DNA of 45,429 nucleotides from Bdellovibrionales bacterium (GTDB lineage: Bacteria; Bdellovibrionota; Bdellovibrionia; Bdellovibrionales; UBA1609). The position numbers and the translations under genes are program-made. Location: NCBI GenBank assembly GCA_007128005.1, contig SKYF01000067.1:1-45429 (forward strand), in the 5' to 3' direction. Below, in pieces: positions 2,509-45,429 of the stretch (position 1 is the first letter of the stretch; each line of letters opens with the position of its first letter). A model generated the notes under the pieces. It was not told the DNA's origin. It did not search any database and saw only the letters and a program-made list of their open reading frames with translations.

Positions 2509-2583
2509 ATGTCAGTGGCACGTTCCATTCAGATCTTTGTGGGGATAGTGATTTTGCTTGACCCCCGACAGATCATTGAGTGA
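2509..2583 (+). CDS. candidate 24-residue small protein with a hydrophobic core
   Basis: A very short frame starts at ATG 2509, preceded by a perfect AAGGAG at 2498-2503 with 5 bases of spacing. The product has a polar start followed by the hydrophobic run IQIFVGIVILL and a charged end. It overlaps the 3' end of the convergent VWA gene by 11 bases. The only support is the ribosome-binding site and the hydrophobic character, so it may be chance. Confidence 0.22.
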   Translation: MSVARSIQIFVGIVILLDPRQIIE

Positions 2584-4258
2584 GGATCACTTCCACTGAG
2601 AGGCCCCGCTGTTCCCAGATCTGGTAGGGGTCGGAGGTGGAGGAAAGGGCTGCTTCTGAGAAACTTAAGTTGGTGTGCCCTTCAAGGTCATGGGCAAAGA
2701 TCAGGTGAGAGATGTCGGTGACCTTGTGGCCGTTGAGAACGACTTGGGTGTTGCTGGCGTTGAGGTGGCCTGCAAAGTTCAAAGTGGTTTCGCGCAAGTT
2801 CTTTCTGGGGTTTTTGTAAAAGTAGACAAAGCGCAGTTGAGCTCCGGGGGCGGGCGCCTCGGCAAAGATCACATCCCCACCTTCTATCTTGAAATCTTCG
2901 CCTGGAGTCATAATCTTCTCATCGACAAAGATCTGTAAAGAGTCACTGAGAATGTCTTCAGTGCCGACTTTCCACTGCTTTTTGTATTCGGGGCGCCCCT
3001 GGGGTTGAGTACTGGAGACAGAGTCAATCAGGACGCTGGCGCGGGGGTGGCCTTTAACCTGGATGTCGAGCTTTCTTTGCTTCACGGGTAGAGTGGGATC
3101 CAAGTGAGGGATGGAGTCCACTTGGTAGCGAATTTGATAGGTGGTGTTGAGCCGGTCGAGTATTCGCTGGAGGATCTGGTCAAGAGTGACTCGACCGCGA
3201 ATCACCAAATCAAAGTCAAACCACTCGCCACCGCTGGATTCCACGATGCTGGGCTGGCCATTGAGTGGGCTGTTAAAGCCGTCCCACACCATGTGCTGGC
3301 CCCGGTGTGTGTGTTCCATGCGGGTGACGGCAAAGACGGTCATCTGAGATTTTTCAATGGCCTGATTGACCTCACTCATTCGCGGGGCGGGGATCTGTCC
3401 CTTGCCGCCCTCTAGATAATGAACATCAATCATGACCCTGCCATCTCCAGCTTCAGCCGCATCTTCAGCTTCAGCCTCCTCCCCAGCCTCACCCCCAACC
3501 TCGGTCTCATCCACTTCAGGAGAGATGTGAAAGCCCCAATCGGTGACGAGGATCACAAAGCGCTGAGAGGACTCTCCCCAAGGCGCATCGGCGGCATCCA
3601 TGAGGGCTCCCATGGGGTTTTCATTGAGATCTGGCCAGCCCGGATCGTAGCCTGCTCCGCGGAAGGCCCTCAGCTGGTTGAGTTCTGAGAGCAACTCTCG
3701 AACTTGGGCCTCCGTGCTGGGGTCATTGGGGTTGTTGTCAAAAAAGCGCTCGCACTTTTTGACTGTATAGTTGCCAAAGGTCGAGATGCACATGCGGGTG
3801 TGATAGCCCTGCTGACGTGAAGTTTGGATAAAGTGGCGCAACCGCAATTTTGCTGTTTCAATGAGCTCAGACATTGTCCCCGTGACGTCCACCAAAAAGA
3901 CAATATCGGCCACTTGGTTGATCCGCTCAGTTTCACTCCTGAGGGAGAAGGGGTGCACGGGAATTCCATTTTCGCTGACCTGAAAGTCCTCCGCAAGGAG
4001 TCCGGTGATGGAGTTTTGGTGGCCGTTGAGGGCCCGGAAGTTGACTTGAACTTCGTTGATATCATAGCGCGCCTGCTGCATTGTCTGCTCTGAGGCAGAG
4101 ATACCAAAATGGCTTTGAAACTTGAGTGACTCCTTGGCAGGGGCCACTAGGGGTCCGCTCTCCACAGTGCAGGCCGAGTTGAAGGCAAGGGCAAAGAAGG
4201 CGACAAGGCCGACCCTTAAAAGCTTTGGGGATTTTATATCTATTGCCTTAACGTCCAC
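2573..4258 (-). CDS. exported von Willebrand factor A (VWA) domain protein
   Basis: A 561-residue protein with an N-terminal hydrophobic export signal ending in NSAC (Cys30), possibly lipidated although the -3 residue is not typical of a lipobox. Residues 68-107 look like the beta module that precedes VWA domains in VWFA-related proteins (DFQVSENGIPV). The VWA domain begins at IVFLVDVTGTMS with a MIDAS-like Asp124/Thr126/Thr128 series. A low-complexity acidic stretch (Glu/Asp/Ala rich) interrupts the domain after about residue 245. The C-terminal 150 residues, with LQIFVDEKIMTPGEDF, look like beta-sandwich material of unknown type. GTG 4258 is the start, with AAGGAGA 7 bases upstream. Such proteins usually bind metal-dependently to protein or wall ligands at the cell surface. 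The partner is unknown. Confidence 0.72.
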   Translation of the reverse strand: MDVKAIDIKSPKLLRVGLVAFFALAFNSACTVESGPLVAPAKESLKFQSHFGISASEQTMQQARYDINEVQVNFRALNGHQNSITGLLAEDFQVSENGIPVHPFSLRSETERINQVADIVFLVDVTGTMSELIETAKLRLRHFIQTSRQQGYHTRMCISTFGNYTVKKCERFFDNNPNDPSTEAQVRELLSELNQLRAFRGAGYDPGWPDLNENPMGALMDAADAPWGESSQRFVILVTDWGFHISPEVDETEVGGEAGEEAEAEDAAEAGDGRVMIDVHYLEGGKGQIPAPRMSEVNQAIEKSQMTVFAVTRMEHTHRGQHMVWDGFNSPLNGQPSIVESSGGEWFDFDLVIRGRVTLDQILQRILDRLNTTYQIRYQVDSIPHLDPTLPVKQRKLDIQVKGHPRASVLIDSVSSTQPQGRPEYKKQWKVGTEDILSDSLQIFVDEKIMTPGEDFKIEGGDVIFAEAPAPGAQLRFVYFYKNPRKNLRETTLNFAGHLNASNTQVVLNGHKVTDISHLIFAHDLEGHTNLSFSEAALSSTSDPYQIWEQRGLSVEVILTQ

Positions 4259-4488
4259 AAAAGTCTCCTTTTGAACAGTGCACTCAGCTCACTGGATTTG
4301 CCTGCCCACTTGGCCCTAATTGAGCAACTTTTGGGCCAGCTTGGAGTTTTGTGTACGGGAGCGGGTGGGGGAGGCCACTAAGGCTCTTTAAAAACACAAC
4401 TTAAAGCTGTTTTCAGACCCTTAGAGGCCCTCTTCAAATACAATCCAACTGTGAAAGGATCACAGACTCAGTGCCCTAGAACGTCACC

Positions 4489-4518
4489 TTGACAGCCCCT
4501 GAGGGGCTGGGCAATTCT
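4489..4518 (+). promoter_or_regulatory. candidate promoter with palindrome in the spacer
   Basis: A perfect -35 hexamer TTGACA lies at 4489-4494. The hyphenated palindrome AGCCCCTGAGGGGCT sits in the spacer, and a weak -10 (AATTCT, 4513-4518) follows at 18 bases. The first codon of the downstream gene is at 4544. A palindrome between -35 and -10 is typical of an operator, but the regulator is unknown and the -10 is poor. Confidence 0.35.
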
Positions 4519-4543
4519 TCGTATTTGAGGGAGTGGAGGTTTT

Positions 4544-5116
4544 ATGAGCTCAATGGGGAATTTGCGAAAGAGAATTCTGTCTTTGGTGGCGACAGTGACT
4601 TGCCTGGCTAGCTTTTCTCAGGGTGGAGGGGCCACAGCTCTTCCTCAAGACCTGGATTTTGCAGATTTTGTGGGCAGCTACCAAGTGCTCTCCTGTGAGC
4701 TCAAGGTCAACAACCGCGTTCACGAGGGCGATGGTCTCTGTGAGGGGGCGGTGAAAATAGAACTTCGACCCACTCCTCATGAGTCTGTGCAGAGCGGATT
4801 TGTCCAGGGTTCCCCAGCCGCTTTTGAGCTCAGCTACCTCGGGGAGACGGGAATTTTGCAGTTAGAAGTGCTTCGCCATATCAGAGGACAGGGGCAAAAT
4901 TTTCTGGAGAGGGCCGACTTTGTTTCTGATCCAAACTCTGCCTACTGGATTCGCCAGTACAGAGAGTTCCCAGTGATCTATGCGATCGATGAGTGGAGGG
5001 AGTGGATCCCTCAGCAAGACAGCGAGGAGCTGCTCTTTATCAGGCTCAGTCGTGAGCTCTGGGGAAATGATTTAAAGATCGTGCACTACGTCTATCGCCT
5101 CAAAAGGAGTCATTAG
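4544..5116 (+). CDS. secreted protein of unknown function
   Basis: I do not recognise this 190-residue protein. It has a basic N-terminus followed by a hydrophobic segment (RILSLVATVTCLASFS), consistent with a Sec signal peptide cleaved near residue 27-33. The mature part is about 155 residues. It contains two Cys residues early in the mature chain (in VLSCEL and GLCEGA) that could form a periplasmic disulfide, and alternating hydrophobic patterns that suggest beta structure. Start ATG 4544 follows GGAGG by 4 bases. It ends 3 bases before the ROK kinase start, so the two are probably cotranscribed and may be translationally coupled. A sugar-related periplasmic role would be speculation. Confidence 0.7.
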   Translation: MSSMGNLRKRILSLVATVTCLASFSQGGGATALPQDLDFADFVGSYQVLSCELKVNNRVHEGDGLCEGAVKIELRPTPHESVQSGFVQGSPAAFELSYLGETGILQLEVLRHIRGQGQNFLERADFVSDPNSAYWIRQYREFPVIYAIDEWREWIPQQDSEELLFIRLSRELWGNDLKIVHYVYRLKRSH

Positions 5117-5119
5117 GAG

Positions 5120-6046
5120 ATGGCCCGATTTGCAGTGGGAGTCGACATTGGCGGGACCAGGACCAAACTTGGACTGGTGGATGAGGGTGGCCGAGTTTTA
5201 CGGGAATCTGTGTTCTCTTCCCAGGGGCATGGCAGTCCGGGCCACTTTGTCGGTGCTTTAAGTCAGCACATCGGGGAGCTTTTGGAGGGGGAAGCTTTAA
5301 GCGATGGGTTTTTGGGCATAGGCATTGGGGCACCCAACGCCTATCCAGATCTTGGTAAAATGATTTCGCCTACAAATTTTGTTTGGGATGAGGTGGATGT
5401 CGTTGCGCCTCTTAGAGGAACTTGGCCTGGGAAGATTCTTCTGGAGAATGATGCCTGTGTGGCAGCCATTGGTGAGGCCCGTTGGGGAAAGGCCCGTGGT
5501 CTCAGCAATTTTGCTCTCGTCACTCTGGGCACGGGGGTCGGGCTCAGCCTAGTGGCCGAGGGGCGGATGCTGCGAGGCCCCGGGGGGGTGAACGGAGAGT
5601 TTGGTCACTCCTCACTTTATGAGGAGGGCAGAGAGTGCAACTGTGGGGGGAGCCGTGGCCACTTGGAGCCCTATCTGTCGGTGGAGGGTATGCTCAAGAC
5701 CATTGAGGAGATAACCGGACAATCCTTTCAGTGGTCTGAGGTTTTGGAGCTGTTTTCTGCTGACCCCCAGTCTTCTCTAGTGAGCGCAGCCTTGGAGCAA
5801 AGTGCCCGCCAGCTAGGACGGGCTTTGGCCTCTTTACATATGCTCTGTGGACCAGAGCTATTTGTCTTGTCTGGAGGAGGGAGTCTTTTAGGCTCTCCTT
5901 TTTGCCAAAAAGTTGAGCAGTCCCTAGAGGAATTTACCTTTCCCTCCTTCCGGGGTCGGGCCCGAGTGACTCACTCTGAGATTTCAGCGGACCAAGGAGC
6001 TATTTTAGGAGCCGCAGCCCTTATTTTTTCCTCATCTTTAGTTTGA
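5120..6046 (+). CDS. ROK family sugar kinase (glucokinase-like)
   Basis: The 308-residue protein matches the ROK family of sugar kinases, which phosphorylate glucose, N-acetylmannosamine or related sugars with ATP. Visible motifs are the N-terminal phosphate-binding loop (GVDIGGTRTKLGLV), the catalytic Asp in LLENDACVA, a second glycine loop (TLGTGVGLSLV), and the E-F-G-H segment before the zinc motif. The zinc motif itself is unusual: ECNCGGSRGHLEPYL has a His where the third Cys is expected, with one extra residue before it. The C-terminal LSGGGS adenosine loop is intact. There is no N-terminal HTH, so it is a kinase rather than a repressor. It follows the secreted protein by 3 bases. Glucokinase is the best guess, but the substrate is not proven. 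Confidence 0.85.
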   Translation: MARFAVGVDIGGTRTKLGLVDEGGRVLRESVFSSQGHGSPGHFVGALSQHIGELLEGEALSDGFLGIGIGAPNAYPDLGKMISPTNFVWDEVDVVAPLRGTWPGKILLENDACVAAIGEARWGKARGLSNFALVTLGTGVGLSLVAEGRMLRGPGGVNGEFGHSSLYEEGRECNCGGSRGHLEPYLSVEGMLKTIEEITGQSFQWSEVLELFSADPQSSLVSAALEQSARQLGRALASLHMLCGPELFVLSGGGSLLGSPFCQKVEQSLEEFTFPSFRGRARVTHSEISADQGAILGAAALIFSSSLV

Positions 6047-32314: not shown

Positions 32315-34057
32315 ATGAGAGAACAAAAAGAAAAGAGCAGAGGCATCGGCTGGGGGGCTATCAAAGCTCTCGCTTACATTGCAGCTCTGACCTTTGCCGC
32401 CGGACTCAGTCAGGGGGCTTTGGCTGAATCCAAAAGATACATTCTGCAGCTGAGTTCTCCTCAGCTTCATGCGCAGATGAGCTCTCAGGTGCGGGCCGAG
32501 CAGGAGCGCTGGACCCATGCTCACGGAGTGGTTGCGCAAAGTGCTCCAAGTGTGAATCTTCAATTGCTCAGTGCCGATGTCCAGGTGGAGCAAGTCCTTG
32601 ATGCTGTGGGAATGATGATCGTCGAGTTCAGTGACTCTTCGGCTGTGGAGCTCTTGAGAGAGCATCCAGCGGTGGCCTTTCTTGAGGAGGAGGTGATCTA
32701 CCCCGCTCCTCAACCCATCCACCTGTCCGCCCGTGGGGTTTATAAAGGCTTTTCTCAGGCCCATCAGTACAGCTCTTACTCCCCAATGCCTTTGCCCTGG
32801 GGGGTCGAAGCCGTCAACGCTCCTCGAGCCTGGGGTCTGTCTGCTCTTGGACAGTCCTCCCGAGTTCTGGTCTTAGACACAGGGATCGATAAAGAGCATC
32901 CAAACTTGATGAGCCGATTTGAAGGGGGCAAAAACTTTACTACAGCCGGCGATGCAGCTCCTTACCCCTACTTTGATGATCACGGTCATGGGACTCATGT
33001 GGCTGGAACCATCCTGGCCGATGGCTCCAATCATGGCTTGCTCGGAGTGGCCCCTCAGGCGGTCCTCTTGGCAGGCAGGGTGTGCACAAATCAGGGCTGC
33101 CCCTCTGGAGCCATTGTCGCTGGAGTCAACTGGGGCATTGAGCAGGGTGTGGATGTGATCAATATGTCTTTGGGTGGAGCTTGGCTGGGACGTGCAGAAA
33201 GAGCCGTCTATGAAAAAGCCGAAGAGGCCAATGTGATGATCGTAGCCGCGGCTGGAAACAATGGTCGAGGGCAGGTCTCTTTCCCTGCAGCTCTGGACAC
33301 AGTTATGGCTGTGGGAGCTTTGGATCACAATCTGAAGAAAGCTGATTTTTCCCAGTGGGGCAAGGAGCTGGAGATCATGGCTCCAGGAGTGGACGTTTAC
33401 TCCTCTATGCCCAGAGGCACTGGCCGTGAGGCCTGGGTGATTGTTGATGCCAGTGGGACAGTGATGGAGCCCGAGGTCCTGCCCATGCTCGGCTCTCCAG
33501 TGGTCAAAGAGCCTGTGGTCGGAGATATGGTCTTTGTTGGACTCGGAAGAGAAGAGGACTACAAGGATGTGCGGGTCAGTGGTCGCATTGCCCTGATCAG
33601 CCGAGGGGAGATCACTTTTGCTGAAAAGGTCTCAAGAGCTGCCGAAAATGGCGCGATAGCAGTGATTATCTTTAACAACGAAGAGGGGAAATTCAATGGT
33701 GTTATCGAGCCCTCTCCTGGAGCAGAGGCAGCCATTCCCGCTGTTTCCATGGATCAAGAGACGGGGGAGAGCTTGAAAGAGAGCTTGCACCATGAATCTC
33801 TGCTTGTTCAGGTGAGTCTTGAGCCCACAGATTATGCTGAGATGAGTGGAACATCCATGGCCTCACCCCATGTTGCGGGAGTGGCGGCTCTAGTGAGGTC
33901 TGTCAACCCCCAATTGTCTCCTGCCGAGGTCAGAGCTGTCCTTAGAGCCAGTGCCATGCCTTTAGTGGAGCAAGATCCTGAAAACAAATATGGAAGTGGT
34001 TTGGTAGATGCCTATGAGGCCGTGAGCCTGGCGCTTCAACCCTCTCTGATCCCTTAA
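32315..34057 (+). CDS. secreted subtilisin-like serine protease (S8) with PA insert
   Basis: A 580-residue secreted protease. In order: a signal peptide (residues about 1-37, cleaved after ALA), an inhibitor_I9-like propeptide (about 39-130), and a catalytic domain with Asp188 in VLVLDTGID, His225 in DHGHGTHVAG, oxyanion Asn315 in AAAGNNG and Ser514 in GTSMASPHVAG. Between the Asn and Ser motifs sits an insert of about 120 residues with the pattern RIALISRGEITFAEKVSRAAENGA, typical of a protease-associated (PA) domain that can bind substrate. The triad is complete, so an active extracellular or periplasmic enzyme is expected. Start ATG follows GGGAAAGGGAGG. A predator or scavenger would use it to digest host protein, but that is inference. 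Confidence 0.92.
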   Translation: MREQKEKSRGIGWGAIKALAYIAALTFAAGLSQGALAESKRYILQLSSPQLHAQMSSQVRAEQERWTHAHGVVAQSAPSVNLQLLSADVQVEQVLDAVGMMIVEFSDSSAVELLREHPAVAFLEEEVIYPAPQPIHLSARGVYKGFSQAHQYSSYSPMPLPWGVEAVNAPRAWGLSALGQSSRVLVLDTGIDKEHPNLMSRFEGGKNFTTAGDAAPYPYFDDHGHGTHVAGTILADGSNHGLLGVAPQAVLLAGRVCTNQGCPSGAIVAGVNWGIEQGVDVINMSLGGAWLGRAERAVYEKAEEANVMIVAAAGNNGRGQVSFPAALDTVMAVGALDHNLKKADFSQWGKELEIMAPGVDVYSSMPRGTGREAWVIVDASGTVMEPEVLPMLGSPVVKEPVVGDMVFVGLGREEDYKDVRVSGRIALISRGEITFAEKVSRAAENGAIAVIIFNNEEGKFNGVIEPSPGAEAAIPAVSMDQETGESLKESLHHESLLVQVSLEPTDYAEMSGTSMASPHVAGVAALVRSVNPQLSPAEVRAVLRASAMPLVEQDPENKYGSGLVDAYEAVSLALQPSLIP

Positions 34058-34114
34058 CGGGAACTCTCTAGCGGAGGGGCTTGAAAGTCGGCCCCTTCGC
34101 ATCTTGATACTTTC

Positions 34115-34741
34115 CTACCAGCGATAGAAGTAATACCAATAAAGATAGTTTTGCGTGGAGTAAACTGGCCTGTAGTAGTAGTAATTCCACTGCCAATACC
34201 AAACGGGCTGATACCAGTAGGCATTAAACTGTGGGCTCCAGACAGTGGGATGGTGGTGAGTGAAGCGCTGTTGCCGAGAGCCACAAGAGTGAGAGTGATA
34301 GGAGTCACAACTGTGGCGCCGATACTGGTCGCGGTGTCCATGTCGGCGGGCAGGCGGTGGGCCGTGGCCAATTCTGGTTTGAGCAACTGAACTGTAATTC
34401 TCTATCTGTCTGACAAAGTAAAGTCCCTCACGGGGTGTCTCAGGGTAGCTTCCATTGATAATGGACTGGGGCATGGCCGGCTGGAAGTTGAGTTTCCCAG
34501 AGCGGGCAATCAGGCTTTCAAAATCATCGGAAGTCAGGCCAAAACCCTCATTTGCTTCGCCAGATGAAAATTGGGAAAGGGCTGCGTACTCCACCTGACC
34601 CTGGGGGCTCACCCGAACCACATACATCTCAGGCCAGGCGTTTTCTCCCACGGACTCAGGGGCCTTTTTTTCACAGGCCAATAGACTCAAAATAGCAAGA
34701 GTGCTTACAGTCGTTGCTGTCAGTCGTTTTAAGGCTTTCAT
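34115..34741 (-). CDS. lipoprotein with His-rich and Tyr/Trp-rich tail
   Basis: No family recognised. The 208-residue protein begins with a lipoprotein signal ending in LSLLAC (lipid-bearing Cys23) and an N-terminal region of roughly 90 residues without special features. Then follows a His/Arg-rich stretch with repeated His-Ser and Gln-Arg elements, including HRDQYRRHSCDSYHSHSCGS, and finally a 41-residue tail in which 22 residues are Tyr, Trp or Phe, ending in YWYYFYRW. Such aromatic density outside a membrane suggests a stacked, self-assembling or surface-binding segment. Start ATG 34741 follows AGGAGGG by 3 bases. The gene is convergent with the subtilase gene, 57 bases apart. Confidence 0.8.
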   Translation of the reverse strand: MKALKRLTATTVSTLAILSLLACEKKAPESVGENAWPEMYVVRVSPQGQVEYAALSQFSSGEANEGFGLTSDDFESLIARSGKLNFQPAMPQSIINGSYPETPREGLYFVRQIENYSSVAQTRIGHGPPPARRHGHRDQYRRHSCDSYHSHSCGSRQQRFTHHHPTVWSPQFNAYWYQPVWYWQWNYYYYRPVYSTQNYLYWYYFYRW

Positions 34742-34812
34742 GGTCCCTCCTAGAAATAGTTAACGCATCACATCTAGCGCATAGCATAAAAAATGCAAGG
34801 AAATTCCCCACA

Positions 34813-34906: not shown

Positions 34907-36508
34907 ATGTTAGTTTCTGGTTTGGATATCTTAGTCCTTGGACTCTACTTTGTCTTGGTTGTGGGACTGGCCGTGTTCCTGGCTCGGCGGGACTCGCGGC
35001 GCTCCCAGGCGACCTCTTCAGAAGACTATTTTTTGGCTGGTCGCAGCCTGGGCTGGGTGGCCGTGGGGCTTTCGCTCATTGCCTCAAATCTTTCTTCAAC
35101 CACACTCATTGGACTGTCTGGAGCGGCCTACAACACGGGGCTATCGATCTCGGCCTATGAGTGGATGACCACTTTTGTGTTGGTGTTTTTTGCCATCTTT
35201 TTTGTGCCCTACTTTTTAGGCAGTCGAATTTTCACTCTGCCTGAGTTTTTGGAAAAGCGCTTTGACCGCAGATCCAGGTACTACTTTTCGGGCATGACCA
35301 TTTTGGGCAATATGTTTATCGACACGGCAGGAACGCTTTTTGCCGGAGCCCTGGTCATTCACTTTTTCTTTCCTCAAGTGGATTACTGGTTGTCGGCGAC
35401 TATTTTGGCTGTAGTGGCTGGGGTTTACACGGCCATTGGGGGGCTGCGCGCTGTTGTGTACACCGATATGGCCCAGACGGTGATCCTGTTTGTAGGCTCT
35501 ACGGTTGCAGCCTATTTGCTCTACCAAGTGGCGGGCCCTTGGAGTTCTATTGTTGCCTCCACTCCCCCTGAAATGCTCAGTGTGATCCGGCCCCTTTCTG
35601 ATGGGACCATGCCCTGGTTGGGGCTTTTGACGGGAGTGCCCATTCTGGGGTTTTACTTCTGGTGCACCAATCAGTTTGTTGTGCAGCGAGTTTTGGCGGC
35701 AAAAAATGTCCAGCACGCTCGCTGGGGAATTTTGTTTGCAGCCTTCCTCAAGTTTGCAGCCATGTTTATTTTGCTCTTTCCAGGCATTATGGCCAGAGAG
35801 GTCTTTCCAGGTCTTGAGACTCCAGATCTGGTTTTTCCCACCATTGTGGCCGAGCTTTTGCCAGTGGGTCTTAAGGGGCTGGTGTTGGCCGGGCTCATTG
35901 CCGCCATTATGAGTAGCATTGACTCGACCCTGCACTCGGCCTCCACTCTGGTGACCATGGATTTTGTAAGACCCCTTCGCCCTCAAACCACTCAGGCCCA
36001 GCTGACTTTGATTGGTCGAATGGTGACCCTGCTGTTTATGCTGGTCAGTATTTTGTGGATCCCGGTGATTGCCAACTTTGAGACCCTCTTTGCCTATCTG
36101 CAGAGCTCCTTGGCCTTTTTTGTCCCACCAGTGGTGGCGGTTTTTTTGCTGGGGCTATTTTGGAAGGGAGCCACAGCTTCAGGGGCCTTTTGGGGGCTCG
36201 TAGTGGGGCATGTCACATCCTTGAGTGCCTTTGTCCTGCAGCAGACGGGATTTTTTCCTCATTTGCATTTTCTTATTGTTGCAGGCTTGATTTTTGCCTC
36301 TTCCGCTCTAGCCATTGCTCTGATCAGTTTTTGCGGGGCTTGCCCTGTGAGCTTGGAATCTCAACAATGGACATGGAGGGCTTCAGGACAGCAGGTGGGA
36401 GCCGTGAGCCGAGCTGTTGATGAAAGGCTTTCCTGGTGGCAAGATTATCGTTTACACTCAGCCCTTATGGTGGTGATCACCCTGAGTTTTGTTATTTTCT
36501 TCTGGTAG
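34907..36508 (+). CDS. sodium:solute symporter (SSS family), sugar-type
   Basis: A 533-residue membrane protein with about 14 hydrophobic segments. SSS landmarks are the N-terminal YF(V/L)AGRSLGW region (SEDYFLAGRSLGWVAVGLSL), the SNLSSTTLIGLSGAAY segment with the unwound first helix of the LeuT fold, TAIGGLRAVVYTD in helix 5 (the GG(L/M)-x-A-V-x-x-T-D signature of Na+/sugar symporters), and NQFVVQRVLAAKN. This resembles vSGLT-type glucose/galactose symporters. Substrate specificity cannot be settled by sequence alone. ATG 34907 lacks a clear ribosome-binding site. It is followed after 7 bases by the glycosidase-like gene. Confidence 0.88.
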   Translation: MLVSGLDILVLGLYFVLVVGLAVFLARRDSRRSQATSSEDYFLAGRSLGWVAVGLSLIASNLSSTTLIGLSGAAYNTGLSISAYEWMTTFVLVFFAIFFVPYFLGSRIFTLPEFLEKRFDRRSRYYFSGMTILGNMFIDTAGTLFAGALVIHFFFPQVDYWLSATILAVVAGVYTAIGGLRAVVYTDMAQTVILFVGSTVAAYLLYQVAGPWSSIVASTPPEMLSVIRPLSDGTMPWLGLLTGVPILGFYFWCTNQFVVQRVLAAKNVQHARWGILFAAFLKFAAMFILLFPGIMAREVFPGLETPDLVFPTIVAELLPVGLKGLVLAGLIAAIMSSIDSTLHSASTLVTMDFVRPLRPQTTQAQLTLIGRMVTLLFMLVSILWIPVIANFETLFAYLQSSLAFFVPPVVAVFLLGLFWKGATASGAFWGLVVGHVTSLSAFVLQQTGFFPHLHFLIVAGLIFASSALAIALISFCGACPVSLESQQWTWRASGQQVGAVSRAVDERLSWWQDYRLHSALMVVITLSFVIFFW

Positions 36509-36515
36509 GGGCAAA

Positions 36516-37757
36516 ATGAAGGCAGCAGAGGTATTTCATCAGGCCGTGGGGCTTTTAGAAGACAGCGTTCACCAGGGCTATTTTTTCGCAAGCCCCGCAA
36601 AGGTGGCCAACTACCAGAGGCTTTGGTCTCGCGATGGGGTCATCTGTGGGCTAGCAGCCCTGTCTCTGAAGCGCAAAGACCTTATAGAGGTTTTTAAAAA
36701 CTCCCTTGTGGCCTTGGCGCGGGCTCAGGGTCCGCAGGGCCAGATCCCCTCCAACTTGGAATTTGCTCAGGATGGCAGTGTTCGCCATGTGAGCCTTGGG
36801 ACTTTGGCCGGAAGGGTGGATGCCAACACCTGGTTTATTATTGGGGTCCTCCAATATCTGAATCAAAGTCCCGAGTGTCCGGAGAAGGATCTGCTTCTTA
36901 AGGCCTCGAAAAGCTCCTTTGGGCTTTTGCAGGCCTGGGAGTACAATGGACGCGGGCTGATCTACACCCCAGAGGGGGGAACCTGGGCCGATGACTACCT
37001 CCTTGAGGGCTACACCTTCTACGACCAGCTGCTGCGTCTGTGGGCGAGTCGTCTGATTCGGCGCCAGGAGCCTGAGGAAGCTGCCCTGGCTTGGGGTCTC
37101 AAGGGCAGTGAGGAGCAGTGGGTGGAGTGGCTTCGACTCAACTACTGGCCGGCTCCTGAGACGGTGACCCTGTCCTATCACCCTCTGGCACAGAAAACTC
37201 TTTTGGCCGATGGAGCAGAGCCTCAGCACTTTCTGGCGGCTCTCAAGCCCTCAGGCTACACTCCACAATTTGATCTCTTTGCTCACTCACTGGCCTTGTT
37301 GTTGAGAGTTCCCGAGAGCAGGCAGCTGGCGCGTATCCTCAGGTTTACAAAAGGAGTAGGCCGAAGGGGCCTGCCCGGAGCAGGTCAAGGAGCTCTGCTG
37401 CCGGCTTTTTGGCCGGTCATCGAGGAGAATACGGAAAACTGGAACAGGCTTCGCCATCTAGCCCCCTTGGCCTTTAAGAATCACCCTTATGAGTACCACA
37501 ATGGGGGTCTATGGCCCCTGCTCAACGGCTGGTGGGGAGTGGCTTTGGCAGAGCAGGGAGAAATGGAAAGCGCCCAAGAGGTGCTCGACTCCCTGACAGA
37601 TCTGCTGGCCAGCTCAGAGGCTGGGAACCAATTTCCTGAGTACTACAACTTCAAACACCTTCAAGCCCTCGGCACGGCCAACTGCACTTGGGGGGCTGCG
37701 GCTTACATAATGCTATTTCAGCGGCTGAATACGGGCTCGGTGGGGCTGTTGTTGTGA
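36516..37757 (+). CDS. (alpha/alpha)6-barrel glycosidase-like protein, debranching/invertase type
   Basis: A 413-residue cytoplasmic protein with the repeated-helix pattern of clan GH-L/GH-G enzymes. NYQRLWSRDGVICGLAAL matches the W-x-R-D motif that starts the catalytic cleft of amylo-1,6-glucosidases and neutral invertases. GGTWADDYLLEGYTFYDQLLRL, NHPYEYHNGGLWPLLNGWWGVAL and the C-terminal NCTWGAAAYIML are further matches. Asp and Glu residues in WSRD and WADD or EYHN are candidates for catalysis. I cannot choose between amylo-alpha-1,6-glucosidase, GH100 invertase or a phosphorylase-like function. The start 36516 has TAGGGG 4 bases upstream. It overlaps the next gene by 4 bases (GTGA). Confidence 0.7.
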   Translation: MKAAEVFHQAVGLLEDSVHQGYFFASPAKVANYQRLWSRDGVICGLAALSLKRKDLIEVFKNSLVALARAQGPQGQIPSNLEFAQDGSVRHVSLGTLAGRVDANTWFIIGVLQYLNQSPECPEKDLLLKASKSSFGLLQAWEYNGRGLIYTPEGGTWADDYLLEGYTFYDQLLRLWASRLIRRQEPEEAALAWGLKGSEEQWVEWLRLNYWPAPETVTLSYHPLAQKTLLADGAEPQHFLAALKPSGYTPQFDLFAHSLALLLRVPESRQLARILRFTKGVGRRGLPGAGQGALLPAFWPVIEENTENWNRLRHLAPLAFKNHPYEYHNGGLWPLLNGWWGVALAEQGEMESAQEVLDSLTDLLASSEAGNQFPEYYNFKHLQALGTANCTWGAAAYIMLFQRLNTGSVGLLL

Positions 37758-38392
37758 TTGGCGAAAACGTCGACCCAACTCTGGCCTCGCGGTCCCTGGT
37801 TGAGGTCTTGGTGGATGTTATTAAAGTGCAGGGGGAGAAGGTGAAACCTCTTGCTGTGGCTTTTTATGGAGAGTCTGGAAGTGGCAAGAGTGTGACGGCC
37901 AAGGCTCTGAGCTTGGGGCTTCAGGAGCAGGGTTATGGAGTCGTACGTCTGCAGATGGATGACTACTTCTTTCTCCCCCCTCAGCAAAACAGCCAGGAGA
38001 GAGAAAAAGACCTCTCTCGAGTGGGACCTTTAGAGGTGGACTTGGCCACCTTGGATCAGCATATCCGTGAGCTCAAAGCCGGGGCCAACCAGATTCAGCA
38101 TCCCATTATTGACTTTAAGCAAAGCACCCGAGTGGTTGAGACTCTGTGTGTGCCCACTCCGCTTGATTTTATCGTGGTTGAGGGGACTTATGTGAACTAT
38201 CTCAAGGAAGTTGATGTCCGGGTTTTTCTCGAGAGAACCTATGAGGAGACTCACATTCATCGCGTGGCCAGGATGCGCGAGCCAGATTCTGAATTGCTGC
38301 GCGAAGTTTTAAAGATTGAGCACCGAATTGTCCAACACAACCGCCATCAAGCCGATCATATCATCTCAAAGGACTTCCAACTGCTTCAGTAA
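37754..38392 (+). CDS. P-loop kinase of the uridine kinase/phosphoribulokinase family
   Basis: A 212-residue protein with P-loop YGESGSGKSVTAKALS (Walker A) near residue 38, the MDDYFFLPP motif containing the D-D-Y that binds substrate in uridine kinases, a hydrophobic strand ending in VVEGTYV (Walker B-like), and a C-terminal R-R-H/HRVARMRE lid region. The fold is the uridine kinase/phosphoribulokinase/pantothenate kinase group. Location directly after the symporter and glycosidase-like gene argues for phosphorylation of the sugar they supply, but uridine kinase remains possible. GTG 37754 overlaps the upstream stop (GTGA), so it is translated by coupling. Confidence 0.7.
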   Translation: MIGENVDPTLASRSLVEVLVDVIKVQGEKVKPLAVAFYGESGSGKSVTAKALSLGLQEQGYGVVRLQMDDYFFLPPQQNSQEREKDLSRVGPLEVDLATLDQHIRELKAGANQIQHPIIDFKQSTRVVETLCVPTPLDFIVVEGTYVNYLKEVDVRVFLERTYEETHIHRVARMREPDSELLREVLKIEHRIVQHNRHQADHIISKDFQLLQ

Positions 38393-38454: not shown

Positions 38455-39786
38455 ATGTTCATGGGCCTGCTGGTGAGCTTGGGTGTGTTTGCCCAAAGTC
38501 CGCCGCTCATGGCGGCAATTTCAGAAGTGGAGAGAGGGCGCATTTCGGCCCGACAGCTTTCTTTAGGTGAGGCCGAGATCAACGGGGCCTACGAGGTCAA
38601 GGTGCGGCTGCGCCGTCAAGTGGATGAACTGACTCTCTCAGCGGTGGGGCTGTCGATCTCAGCCAGTGGAGGGGAGCTGGGCTTGGCTTTACAAAACTCC
38701 GAGCAGTTGACCTTTGGCTTGGGAGCAGAGCCTCAGCAGTGGTGGGTTCGGCGAATCTCTGCCGAAGGCTTGCGGCAAATGGAAGTCAGAGCCGAGTGGC
38801 TGGAGCTGTCTGCGCTCACTGTGCGTCTGGGAGCAGAGCCCCTGCCTCAGAAACTGCGCCTGTGGCCCAACCCCAGAGGGGGTATAGATGTGATCGCCCA
38901 CTTGGATTTGGACAGCTATCTGGCTGGGGTGCTGCCCTCAGAGATGCCGGCCTCCTGGCCCAGGCAAGCTCTCAAGGCCCAGGCGGTGGCAGCGCGCTCC
39001 TATATGCTCAGTGTGATGGGTGAGAGGCTGGGACAGCACTTCCACCTGGAGTCGACAGTGGAGGATCAGGTCTACAGCTTGGCCCAGCAGCTCAACACCG
39101 AGCCCGAACTGCAGTCGAGGCTTGCACAGGTGCTTAAGGCAACGAGGGGAGAGGTGCTGGCCGATATCCAGGGCGATGTGTTGCGGGCCTTTTATCATGC
39201 CGACTGTGGGGGCCACACCGAGGAGGCTCGCCTGGTGTGGGGGAGGGGGCCCCGGGGTGGAGCCTATCCAAGGGGTGCCGGGACCACTTCTGACCCCTAC
39301 TGCCCCTCATCCCCTTTGGCTCAGTGGCGAGTGCGCATTGCCCGCCAGGAGCTGGAGCAAAAGCTGGGGGCCTACTTTGCTCGCCCTCCTGAGCAGCGCA
39401 GGTTTGTCGACCTGGTGGCGGCTGAAACCACGGGATCTGGACGAGTGAGCTGGATCAACGTGCTCTACCCCGATCAGGGGAGGCTCCACTCCATCAGCTC
39501 CCAGGAGCTGCGGCGTCTTTTGGGCTTCGGGCGGGTGCGCAGCACGCGCATGACCTGGCAGTGGGTGCAAAGTCAGGAGTCAGGGGAAGGTACAGGTACA
39601 GGTGCCGGTGCAGGTGCAGGTGCAGGTGCCGTCGCTGAACAGCTCGAGATCCAGGGCCGGGGTCATGGTCATGGTGTGGGATTATGTCAGTGGGGGGCTC
39701 GCGCCCTGGCAGAAAGGGGCCTGGGCTATCGAGATATCCTCAGGCACTATTATCCGCAGGCAACTTTAGCCAATCACGCCCAGTAG
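38455..39786 (+). CDS. SpoIID/LytB-domain exported protein
   Basis: SpoIID is a lytic transglycosylase in sporulating bacteria; the SpoIID/LytB-type domain is also found in Gram-negatives of unknown role. The 443-residue protein has a short signal (MFMGLLVSLGVFAQ), then an N-terminal region, and the SpoIID domain from about residue 140: LDLDSYLAGVLPSEMPASWP followed by ALKAQAVAARSYML, the region with the catalytic Glu, then YHADCGGHTEEA and the C-terminal RGHGHGVGLCQWGARALA. All are standard landmarks. An imperfect Gly-Thr/Gly-Ala repeat lies just before the last block. The start 38455 is preceded by nine G and ACAGGG. It was placed downstream of the kinase gene by 62 bases. Confidence 0.85.
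   Translation: MFMGLLVSLGVFAQSPPLMAAISEVERGRISARQLSLGEAEINGAYEVKVRLRRQVDELTLSAVGLSISASGGELGLALQNSEQLTFGLGAEPQQWWVRRISAEGLRQMEVRAEWLELSALTVRLGAEPLPQKLRLWPNPRGGIDVIAHLDLDSYLAGVLPSEMPASWPRQALKAQAVAARSYMLSVMGERLGQHFHLESTVEDQVYSLAQQLNTEPELQSRLAQVLKATRGEVLADIQGDVLRAFYHADCGGHTEEARLVWGRGPRGGAYPRGAGTTSDPYCPSSPLAQWRVRIARQELEQKLGAYFARPPEQRRFVDLVAAETTGSGRVSWINVLYPDQGRLHSISSQELRRLLGFGRVRSTRMTWQWVQSQESGEGTGTGAGAGAGAGAVAEQLEIQGRGHGHGVGLCQWGARALAERGLGYRDILRHYYPQATLANHAQ
39589..39630 (+). repeat. in-frame hexanucleotide tandem repeat in the SpoIID gene
   Basis: Seven 6-base units: GGTACA twice, GGTGCC once, GGTGCA three times, GGTGCC once. They encode Gly-Thr twice and Gly-Ala five times. Loss or gain of units would keep the frame, so length variation between strains can change a linker directly before the conserved GHGHGVGLCQWG block. 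Confidence 0.8.
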
Positions 39787-43884: not shown

Positions 43885-45429
43885 CTAGGCAAACAGTTGG
43901 CGCAGTTGAGCAAAGCTGTGCAGAGTCCAGGGCAGGGCCTGCTCTATATGAGGCCCTCGGATCAGAGTGGAGTTGCTGAGGTCTGCGTAGCTGCGGGCCA
44001 CCCTGAGCACGGCGCGCAGACGTCTTTGCGAAAGTCCCCCGGTTTCAGGCAGCAGGTTCTGGAATGTGAAGGGGTCTGTCAGCTCTTTGAGCTCATCCAT
44101 CTGCAGTTTTGAGTTGGGTCTTTCTCTCTGGCCTCGCTCGTCCTGGAGCCTGCGGGCTCCTTCAAGGGTTGAGCAGATGGAGTGCAGGGGCTGTGCCGTC
44201 CCCCTGGATGCGGAGCCGCCGAGCCAGCCGGAGGAAAAGGCAAAGATATCAAAGCGGTCCAAGATGGGGCCGCTCAGGCGCTGACAGTAGGAGCGACAGC
44301 GCTGCAGGCTGTAGGAGCAGGAATAGCTTTTTCCCGGGGTCAGCTGTCCGCAGGGGCAGAGGTTGGTGGTGGCCATCAGCATAAAGCGGGAGGGGAAGTG
44401 GCGAGTTTCACCCTTGCGGCTGATGGTGATCTGTCCGGACTCCAGGGGCTCACGAAGAGCCTCTTGAATTTGTCCGTTAAACTCCAAAAATTCATCCATA
44501 ATCAACAGGCCGTTGTGGGCCTGGGAAATGGCTCCAGGGAAAATCGGCGAACCTCCTCCGATCAATGACAGGGCGGTGATGCTGTGGTGTGGATTGGCAA
44601 GGGGGCGCCAGTCCAGGCCTTGGGCCGAGAGCTCTAGGTGAACCTGTGGTCCAGGAGCTCTCAGCAGAGGCCAAAGTGCCTCGGCCAAAGTGGTTTTGCC
44701 ACTGCCGGTGGCTCCGGCCAAAAGACAGTGGTGTTCTCCTGTGGCAAGAACCTGAAGCAGCTCCAGAGCCTTTGCTGGAAAGTGCATATCAGGTAGAGGA
44801 GGAGCTCGAAGATGGTCGGCATTGAGGGAGTCCTGGCCATGGTGGGGCTTCACCTGATTGAGCTGCTTAAGACTTTCAATCCAGGAGCAGTCAATTCCCA
44901 GGGCTTGGCTGAGTTTGCCGGTCAAAAGCGGGCTTCCCATGGTTTCCATATTCAGAGCCCAAAGGCTGATATCCTCAGGGGCCGTGCACTCACCCGTAAG
45001 ACTCAATTCTCCATAGGCGATCAACTCTCCTTCGGTGAGCAACTCAGGGCTGAGGCGAAGTTGACCTGTTGTCTGTAAGATGGCCAGAGCCAGGGCCAGA
45101 TCCAGCCCCTTTGATTTTTTGCGCTCAAAGGCCGGTCTCAGGTTGATTAGCAACTGCTGTGTGCGGGGCCACTTGTAGCCCTGGGCCCTCAGCGCCGCCT
45201 TCACTCGCAGCACACTTTCCTTTATCGCCTGATCGGGCAGACCCATAATATGAACTTGAGGCAGCCCCGGACTGAGCGAGGCCTCCACCAGAACCTTCTC
45301 CAAGCTGCCACTTTGATTTCTGAATAGGGAGAAGATCTTTAGCACCCCGGCCGCTGAAGACCCCCCTGTCTTCAACTCCAAGGCCTCATCCAAGTCCCCG
45401 TCCAATACGCCGTCCAATACGCCGTCCAA
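43885..45429 (-). CDS. comM: YifB/ComM family Mg-chelatase-like AAA ATPase (N-terminus cut by right edge)
   Basis: ComM-type helicases extend branch migration during recombination and natural transformation. The 514 residues seen include the N-terminal lid pattern SPGLPQVHIMGLPDQAIKESVLRVKAAL, a NLRPAFERKKSKGLDLALALAIL segment, Walker A GATGSGKTTLAEALW, Walker B-like LLIMDEFLEF, and a C-terminal CPCG...CSCYSL-x-C zinc region followed by SGPILDRFDIF. The family start (M-x-x-(A/K)-V-x-S) appears at about residue 28 here. A preceding Asp-Gly-Val-Leu repeat runs to the window edge, so it may be an extension or a longer upstream frame. Confidence 0.9.
   Translation of the reverse strand: MDGVLDGVLDGDLDEALELKTGGSSAAGVLKIFSLFRNQSGSLEKVLVEASLSPGLPQVHIMGLPDQAIKESVLRVKAALRAQGYKWPRTQQLLINLRPAFERKKSKGLDLALALAILQTTGQLRLSPELLTEGELIAYGELSLTGECTAPEDISLWALNMETMGSPLLTGKLSQALGIDCSWIESLKQLNQVKPHHGQDSLNADHLRAPPLPDMHFPAKALELLQVLATGEHHCLLAGATGSGKTTLAEALWPLLRAPGPQVHLELSAQGLDWRPLANPHHSITALSLIGGGSPIFPGAISQAHNGLLIMDEFLEFNGQIQEALREPLESGQITISRKGETRHFPSRFMLMATTNLCPCGQLTPGKSYSCSYSLQRCRSYCQRLSGPILDRFDIFAFSSGWLGGSASRGTAQPLHSICSTLEGARRLQDERGQRERPNSKLQMDELKELTDPFTFQNLLPETGGLSQRRLRAVLRVARSYADLSNSTLIRGPHIEQALPWTLHSFAQLRQLFA
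45399..45429 (-). repeat. 12-bp tandem repeat at the right edge
   Basis: At least two and a half copies of CGTCCAATACGC run to the end of the window, encoding repeated Asp-Gly-Val-Leu on the minus strand, in frame with comM. The number of copies beyond the edge is unknown. Confidence 0.6.

Follow-up and report, generated by a model that had tools for sequence, protein, structure and literature searches.

Bacterial lipoproteins of the Lgt/LspA/Lol pathway are recognized by an established rule, according to which a basic n-region and a hydrophobic h-region precede a lipobox that ends in a cysteine near residue 20 and whose –2 position is less usually occupied by leucine than by alanine or serine. 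We have analysed a stretch of 45,429 nucleotides, hereafter termed the window, which constitutes one whole contig (C191) of the 2.57 Mb genome of a Bdellovibrionales bacterium (99.4% complete) and which contains a gene whose product follows this rule (Table 1). Its signal peptide MKALKRLTATTVSTLAILSLLA comprises, as judged by reading, a basic KALKR n-region, a hydrophobic LAILSL h-region and the sequence L-L-A-C at residues 20-23, with the lipobox cysteine at residue 23, and an AGGAGG ribosome site is located four bases 5' of the ATG. The assignment as lipoprotein, which had already been made in a preliminary description of this DNA, is thus supported by the lipobox and the strong ribosome site. 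Unlike bacterial lipoproteins in general, the protein belongs to no family with known relatives and carries an unusual linker and tail.

In its overall character, the protein appears closest in kind to exported His-rich, Trp/Tyr-rich proteins, among which it would be new as an orphan. A small protein of this kind is encoded in another genome of the phylum (L140:1273-1722, G156 contig 2), where a His-rich part is followed by WWWVVGPSWYYYSRPVYPYPDPY and a C-terminal WYYCxxxxYYPYVxxCPGGW. The cysteine-containing end of this protein has relatives in Burkholderiaceae (on Burkholderia/Caballeronia replicons), and no Pfam or NCBIfam model describes it. Both proteins are exported, and in both a His-rich region comes before a Trp/Tyr-rich one that includes a YYYxRPVY-like run. 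Conversely, the L140 protein has a Sec-type signal without the lipobox and lacks the N-terminal domain of the lipoprotein, its aromatic content does not exceed 13 of 41 residues compared to 22 of 41 in the lipoprotein tail, and the C-terminal YYC...YYPYV..C.GGW that is conserved in its type is absent from the lipoprotein. Since the two proteins share no sequence similarity (BLASTP best E 8.5; a search of G000 with the L140 protein found nothing), we regard their relationship as a resemblance of kind rather than as membership.

Table 1. Features of the lipoprotein gene and its immediate vicinity, with positions numbered along the window.
Feature	Position	Strand	Description
Lipoprotein ORF	34115..34741	(-)	208 aa, ATG start, TAG stop
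Shine-Dalgarno region TAGGAGGGACC	34742..34752	(-)	AGGAGG, GACC, ATG; directly 5' of ATG
Signal peptide, residues 1-23	34673..34741	(-)	lipobox LSLLA/C, +2 Glu; direct reading
N-terminal domain, residues 24-118	34388..34672	(-)	without relatives
His/Arg-rich stretch, residues 119-167	34241..34387	(-)	codon statistics look out of frame
Aromatic tail, residues 168-208	34118..34240	(-)	22/41 Tyr/Trp/Phe
Overlapping +1-frame ORF	34054..34386	(-)	110 codons from TTG
Weak hairpin between convergent subtilase and lipoprotein genes	34071..34100	not assigned	

Following the signal peptide, a beta-beta-alpha-beta arrangement is predicted with low confidence for the N-terminal domain. The ensuing His/Arg-rich stretch contains nine histidines, which include the clusters HGH, HSH and HHH, and two cysteines within 49 residues, carries a net charge of +6 and harbours the HSC motifs at residues 143-145 and 151-153, whereas the c-type haem motif CXXCH is absent from the sequence. 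The tail, WSPQFNAYWYQPVWYWQWNYYYYRPVYSTQNYLYWYYFYRW, is present in the sequence as it had initially been described, with more than half of its residues being aromatic (13 Tyr, 7 Trp and 2 Phe), YWYYFYRW at its end and the paired HSC motifs upstream of it, and it is statistically extreme. The highest count in 56,958 in-frame windows of 41 residues taken from the remaining ORFs of this genome is 13 aromatic residues, and within 1.1 Mb of examined DNA only the reading of a TAY microsatellite exceeds the tail. At the DNA level the region is free of repeats; the tail has therefore not arisen by repeat expansion, and its origin from a microsatellite was rejected. On the Wimley-White scale, with its generally known values, the summed interface energy of the tail (–20.7 kcal/mol) is the lowest of the 56,958 windows, followed by a transmembrane-like segment at –16.1. 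At the same time, the tail is hydrophilic overall, with a mean Kyte-Doolittle value of –1.08, and the best other hydrophilic window of the sampled genes reaches an interface energy of only –8.3.

Searches for relatives of the lipoprotein were negative at all levels. Across 369 genomes of the phylum no homologue reached E<0.001, and none was obtained in its own genome, in GTDB-wide peptide patterns or in viral contigs, phages and plasmids. Weak candidates either contained internal stops or matched only in the signal peptide, and one of them (L004) looks by sequence like an FKBP-type isomerase lipoprotein. DNA patterns encoding YYYYRPVY and the terminal YWYYFYRW with its stop codon have their only exact match at the lipoprotein locus itself; inexact matches are scattered and were also obtained with reversed control patterns. 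The proposal that no family displays this combination of features agrees with the lack of any match in Pfam, NCBIfam, PHROGs and PADLOC (at E<=10 or E<=1) and in the PDB, although the L140 protein makes the composition less isolated than had been assumed. Literature searches on tyrosine-rich or aromatic-rich lipoproteins returned nothing relevant. In a second genome of the same genus (G001, 97% complete), the gene is absent while orthologues of both neighbours are present, and the DNA between 34058 and 34906 has no match there (best E 0.27). The missing relatives in the searched collections and the absence from the same-genus genome together suggest that the gene is a species-restricted orphan, as far as these collections, with their one genome per species, reach. 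It resembles other bacterial orphans of this type in having no same-genus relative and in residing where the gene order of two species differs, but it is distinguished from typical ones by a well-formed signal peptide, a ribosome site and a coding-like N-terminal domain. Conservation of the tail, on which the initial proposal had been made to depend, was not observed, since none of the searched genomes, the same-genus species included, contains another copy. It is thereby harder to argue for a conserved functional element, but with one genome per species in the searched set this is no proof of missing function.

The lipoprotein gene stands alone. Downstream, it converges with a gene for a subtilase with PA domain (32315-34057), and the hairpin between both found no support as an intrinsic terminator, as it is not significant compared to shuffled sequences (z –1.36) and lacks a T run. 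Upstream, the gene diverges from a sodium:solute symporter (34907-36508). The subtilase orthologue of G001 (76% identity) precedes, as judged from reading the sequence, a tRNA-like element and an ORF unrelated to the lipoprotein gene. The symporter orthologue (73%), located on a contig of 11,909 bases, adjoins a relative of the window ORF 4544-5116; the lipoprotein gene is next to neither of them. The symporter is followed by a GH100 (invertase-like) protein and a PRK-like kinase in a run (34907-38392) that is common to the sister species and that looks like a sugar-uptake operon. In G001 (L016, G001:C53), a VWA-like gene, a gene for a 177-residue protein, the symporter, the GH100-like protein, the PRK-like kinase and a ROK kinase are found together, whereas their counterparts in the window are divided into two halves (2573-6046 and 34907-38392) about 29 kb apart. 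Elsewhere in the window, a gene with a SpoIID domain contains seven tandem copies of AGGTGC (39588-39629), and a perfect tandem repeat with a 12-base unit (45398-45429, CCGTCCAATACG) lies at the very end of the contig, where it possibly caused the break in the assembly.

Whether the entire ORF is read in one frame bears on any interpretation of its C-terminal half. A frameshift near codon 115-124, either natural or introduced during assembly, could have fused an authentic N-terminal domain with sequence read out of frame. The His/Arg-rich stretch and perhaps the tail would then be chance sequence, and the protein would originally have terminated in the +1 frame, at 34054; if two shifts are assumed, the out-of-frame part would be confined to residues of about 115-157. 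We consider this explanation unlikely but far from negligible. It is favoured by simple coding-versus-background log-odds, which prefer the +1 frame for residues 119-208. The proper comparison is provided by two phase-aware codon models, in which the same bases are scored under each frame. These favour frame 0 for residues 1-118 by 50-60 bits and 131-137 bits, respectively, and both favour the +1 frame for residues 119-167 by 11 bits. A single switch from frame 0 to frame 1 is accompanied by a phase-aware gain of 6.6 bits compared to a maximum of 4.5 among 151 genes, and an out-of-frame island at residues 115-157 by a gain of 24 bits. The best single alternative-frame stretch (residues 124-157) amounts to 15.6 bits, and signals of at least 16.8 bits are found in about 5% of ORFs of the same genome, some of them perhaps from mis-set starts. 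Off-frame reads are typically enriched in His, Arg, Ser and Cys, as is the His/Arg-rich stretch, and a density of nine histidines in 49 residues is among other genes only found in frame +2. The natural His/Trp/Tyr-rich L140 protein, used as control, shows no alternative-frame signal, thus indicating that an odd composition by itself need not produce one. In contrast, the tail fits frame 0, which leads the other frames by 6 and 12 bits in the first model and by 11 and 21 bits in the second, with an advantage over frame 1 of 6-11 bits. Its third-position GC content is 0.62 in the annotated frame but only 0.30 in the +1 frame (reference 0.59), its tyrosine codons (TAC:TAT 7:6) are used close to the reference ratio of 121:122, and off-frame and antisense windows of the genome never contain more than 12 aromatics in 41 residues. 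The +1-frame ORF itself has neither relatives nor a visible ribosome site; a peptide match in G001 (L032) overlaps unrelated ORFs and is not a credible relative. Hence, the tail is probably in its annotated frame, and the His/Arg-rich stretch either belongs to a genuinely unusual protein or forms an island read out of frame. A frameshift product, against which the first analysis had cautioned, is by the codon models disfavoured for the tail but possible for this stretch.

Of the roles that had been considered earlier, the composition agrees best with adhesion or binding to an interface. Metal binding, dityrosine formation and a beta-signal are possible with less in their support than partition to an interface. 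The histidine clusters, the two cysteines and the HSC motifs could together with the aromatics form a patch that handles metal ions or haem. We regard this as quite improbable, as CXXCH is lacking, no known metal-binding family was matched, no metal or haem gene is found among the tested neighbours and the stretch in question is the part with the weakest coding evidence. The 13 tyrosines of the tail would also permit its oxidative cross-linking via dityrosine into an insoluble matrix, an idea from composition that appears very unlikely with no peroxidase or oxidase among the tested neighbours. Finally, the aromatic last residue and the aromatic or hydrophobic residues at positions –3, –5, –7 and –9 recall an outer-membrane beta-signal, by which the tail would form barrel strands or dock on BAM. 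This pattern is trivial for a sequence with 54% aromatics, where aromatic pairs are equally common at lags 1 and 2 (12 and 12) and thus show no alternation, and a lipoprotein of 208 residues in which no more than a short tail is strand-prone does not constitute a barrel. We regard this as the least likely of the explanations.

We tentatively prefer, while not holding it to be probable, an outer-membrane lipoprotein in which both the cationic linker and the aromatic tail seek out a membrane-water or glycan interface, a role that we infer from composition alone. Lipid-water partition or stacking on glycans is suggested by the interface energy of the tail and the charge of the linker. In such a mechanism, a real orphan gene would be expressed, and its product would receive its lipid at Cys23 and probably be directed to the outer membrane. 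A small folded domain of about residues 24-118 would be followed by a flexible cationic linker, if translation proceeds through this stretch, and by a tail that is either unstructured or beta-prone. The dense Tyr and Trp residues of the latter may enter the membrane-water interface or stack on glycans such as LPS, peptidoglycan or extracellular polysaccharide, and the protein would link the membrane in which it is anchored with another surface, thereby serving in non-specific adhesion and not in catalysis. We count the order of His-rich and Trp/Tyr-rich regions in the L140 protein in favour of this interface-binding lipoprotein, and against it the out-of-frame-like codon statistics of the His/Arg-rich stretch, the single known tail sequence with respect to selection on the tail, and an uninformative AlphaFold prediction from the single sequence (mean pLDDT 36.5). 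It would be a more daring and improbable proposal that a recently born lipoprotein uses its aromatic, cationic C-terminus as a 'sticker' that anchors the cell to the envelope of its prey, to polysaccharide or to mineral through nothing but interface chemistry, without a folded adhesin domain.

If the tail is a frameshift product, the locus would illustrate how a striking low-complexity protein can be simulated by reading out of frame. If it is translated, no other stretch of 41 residues in the sampled proteome would be as interface-seeking, the tail would represent a minimal natural element for adhesion or anchoring, and the gene, absent from the sister species, would be a young secreted gene that lends itself to study.
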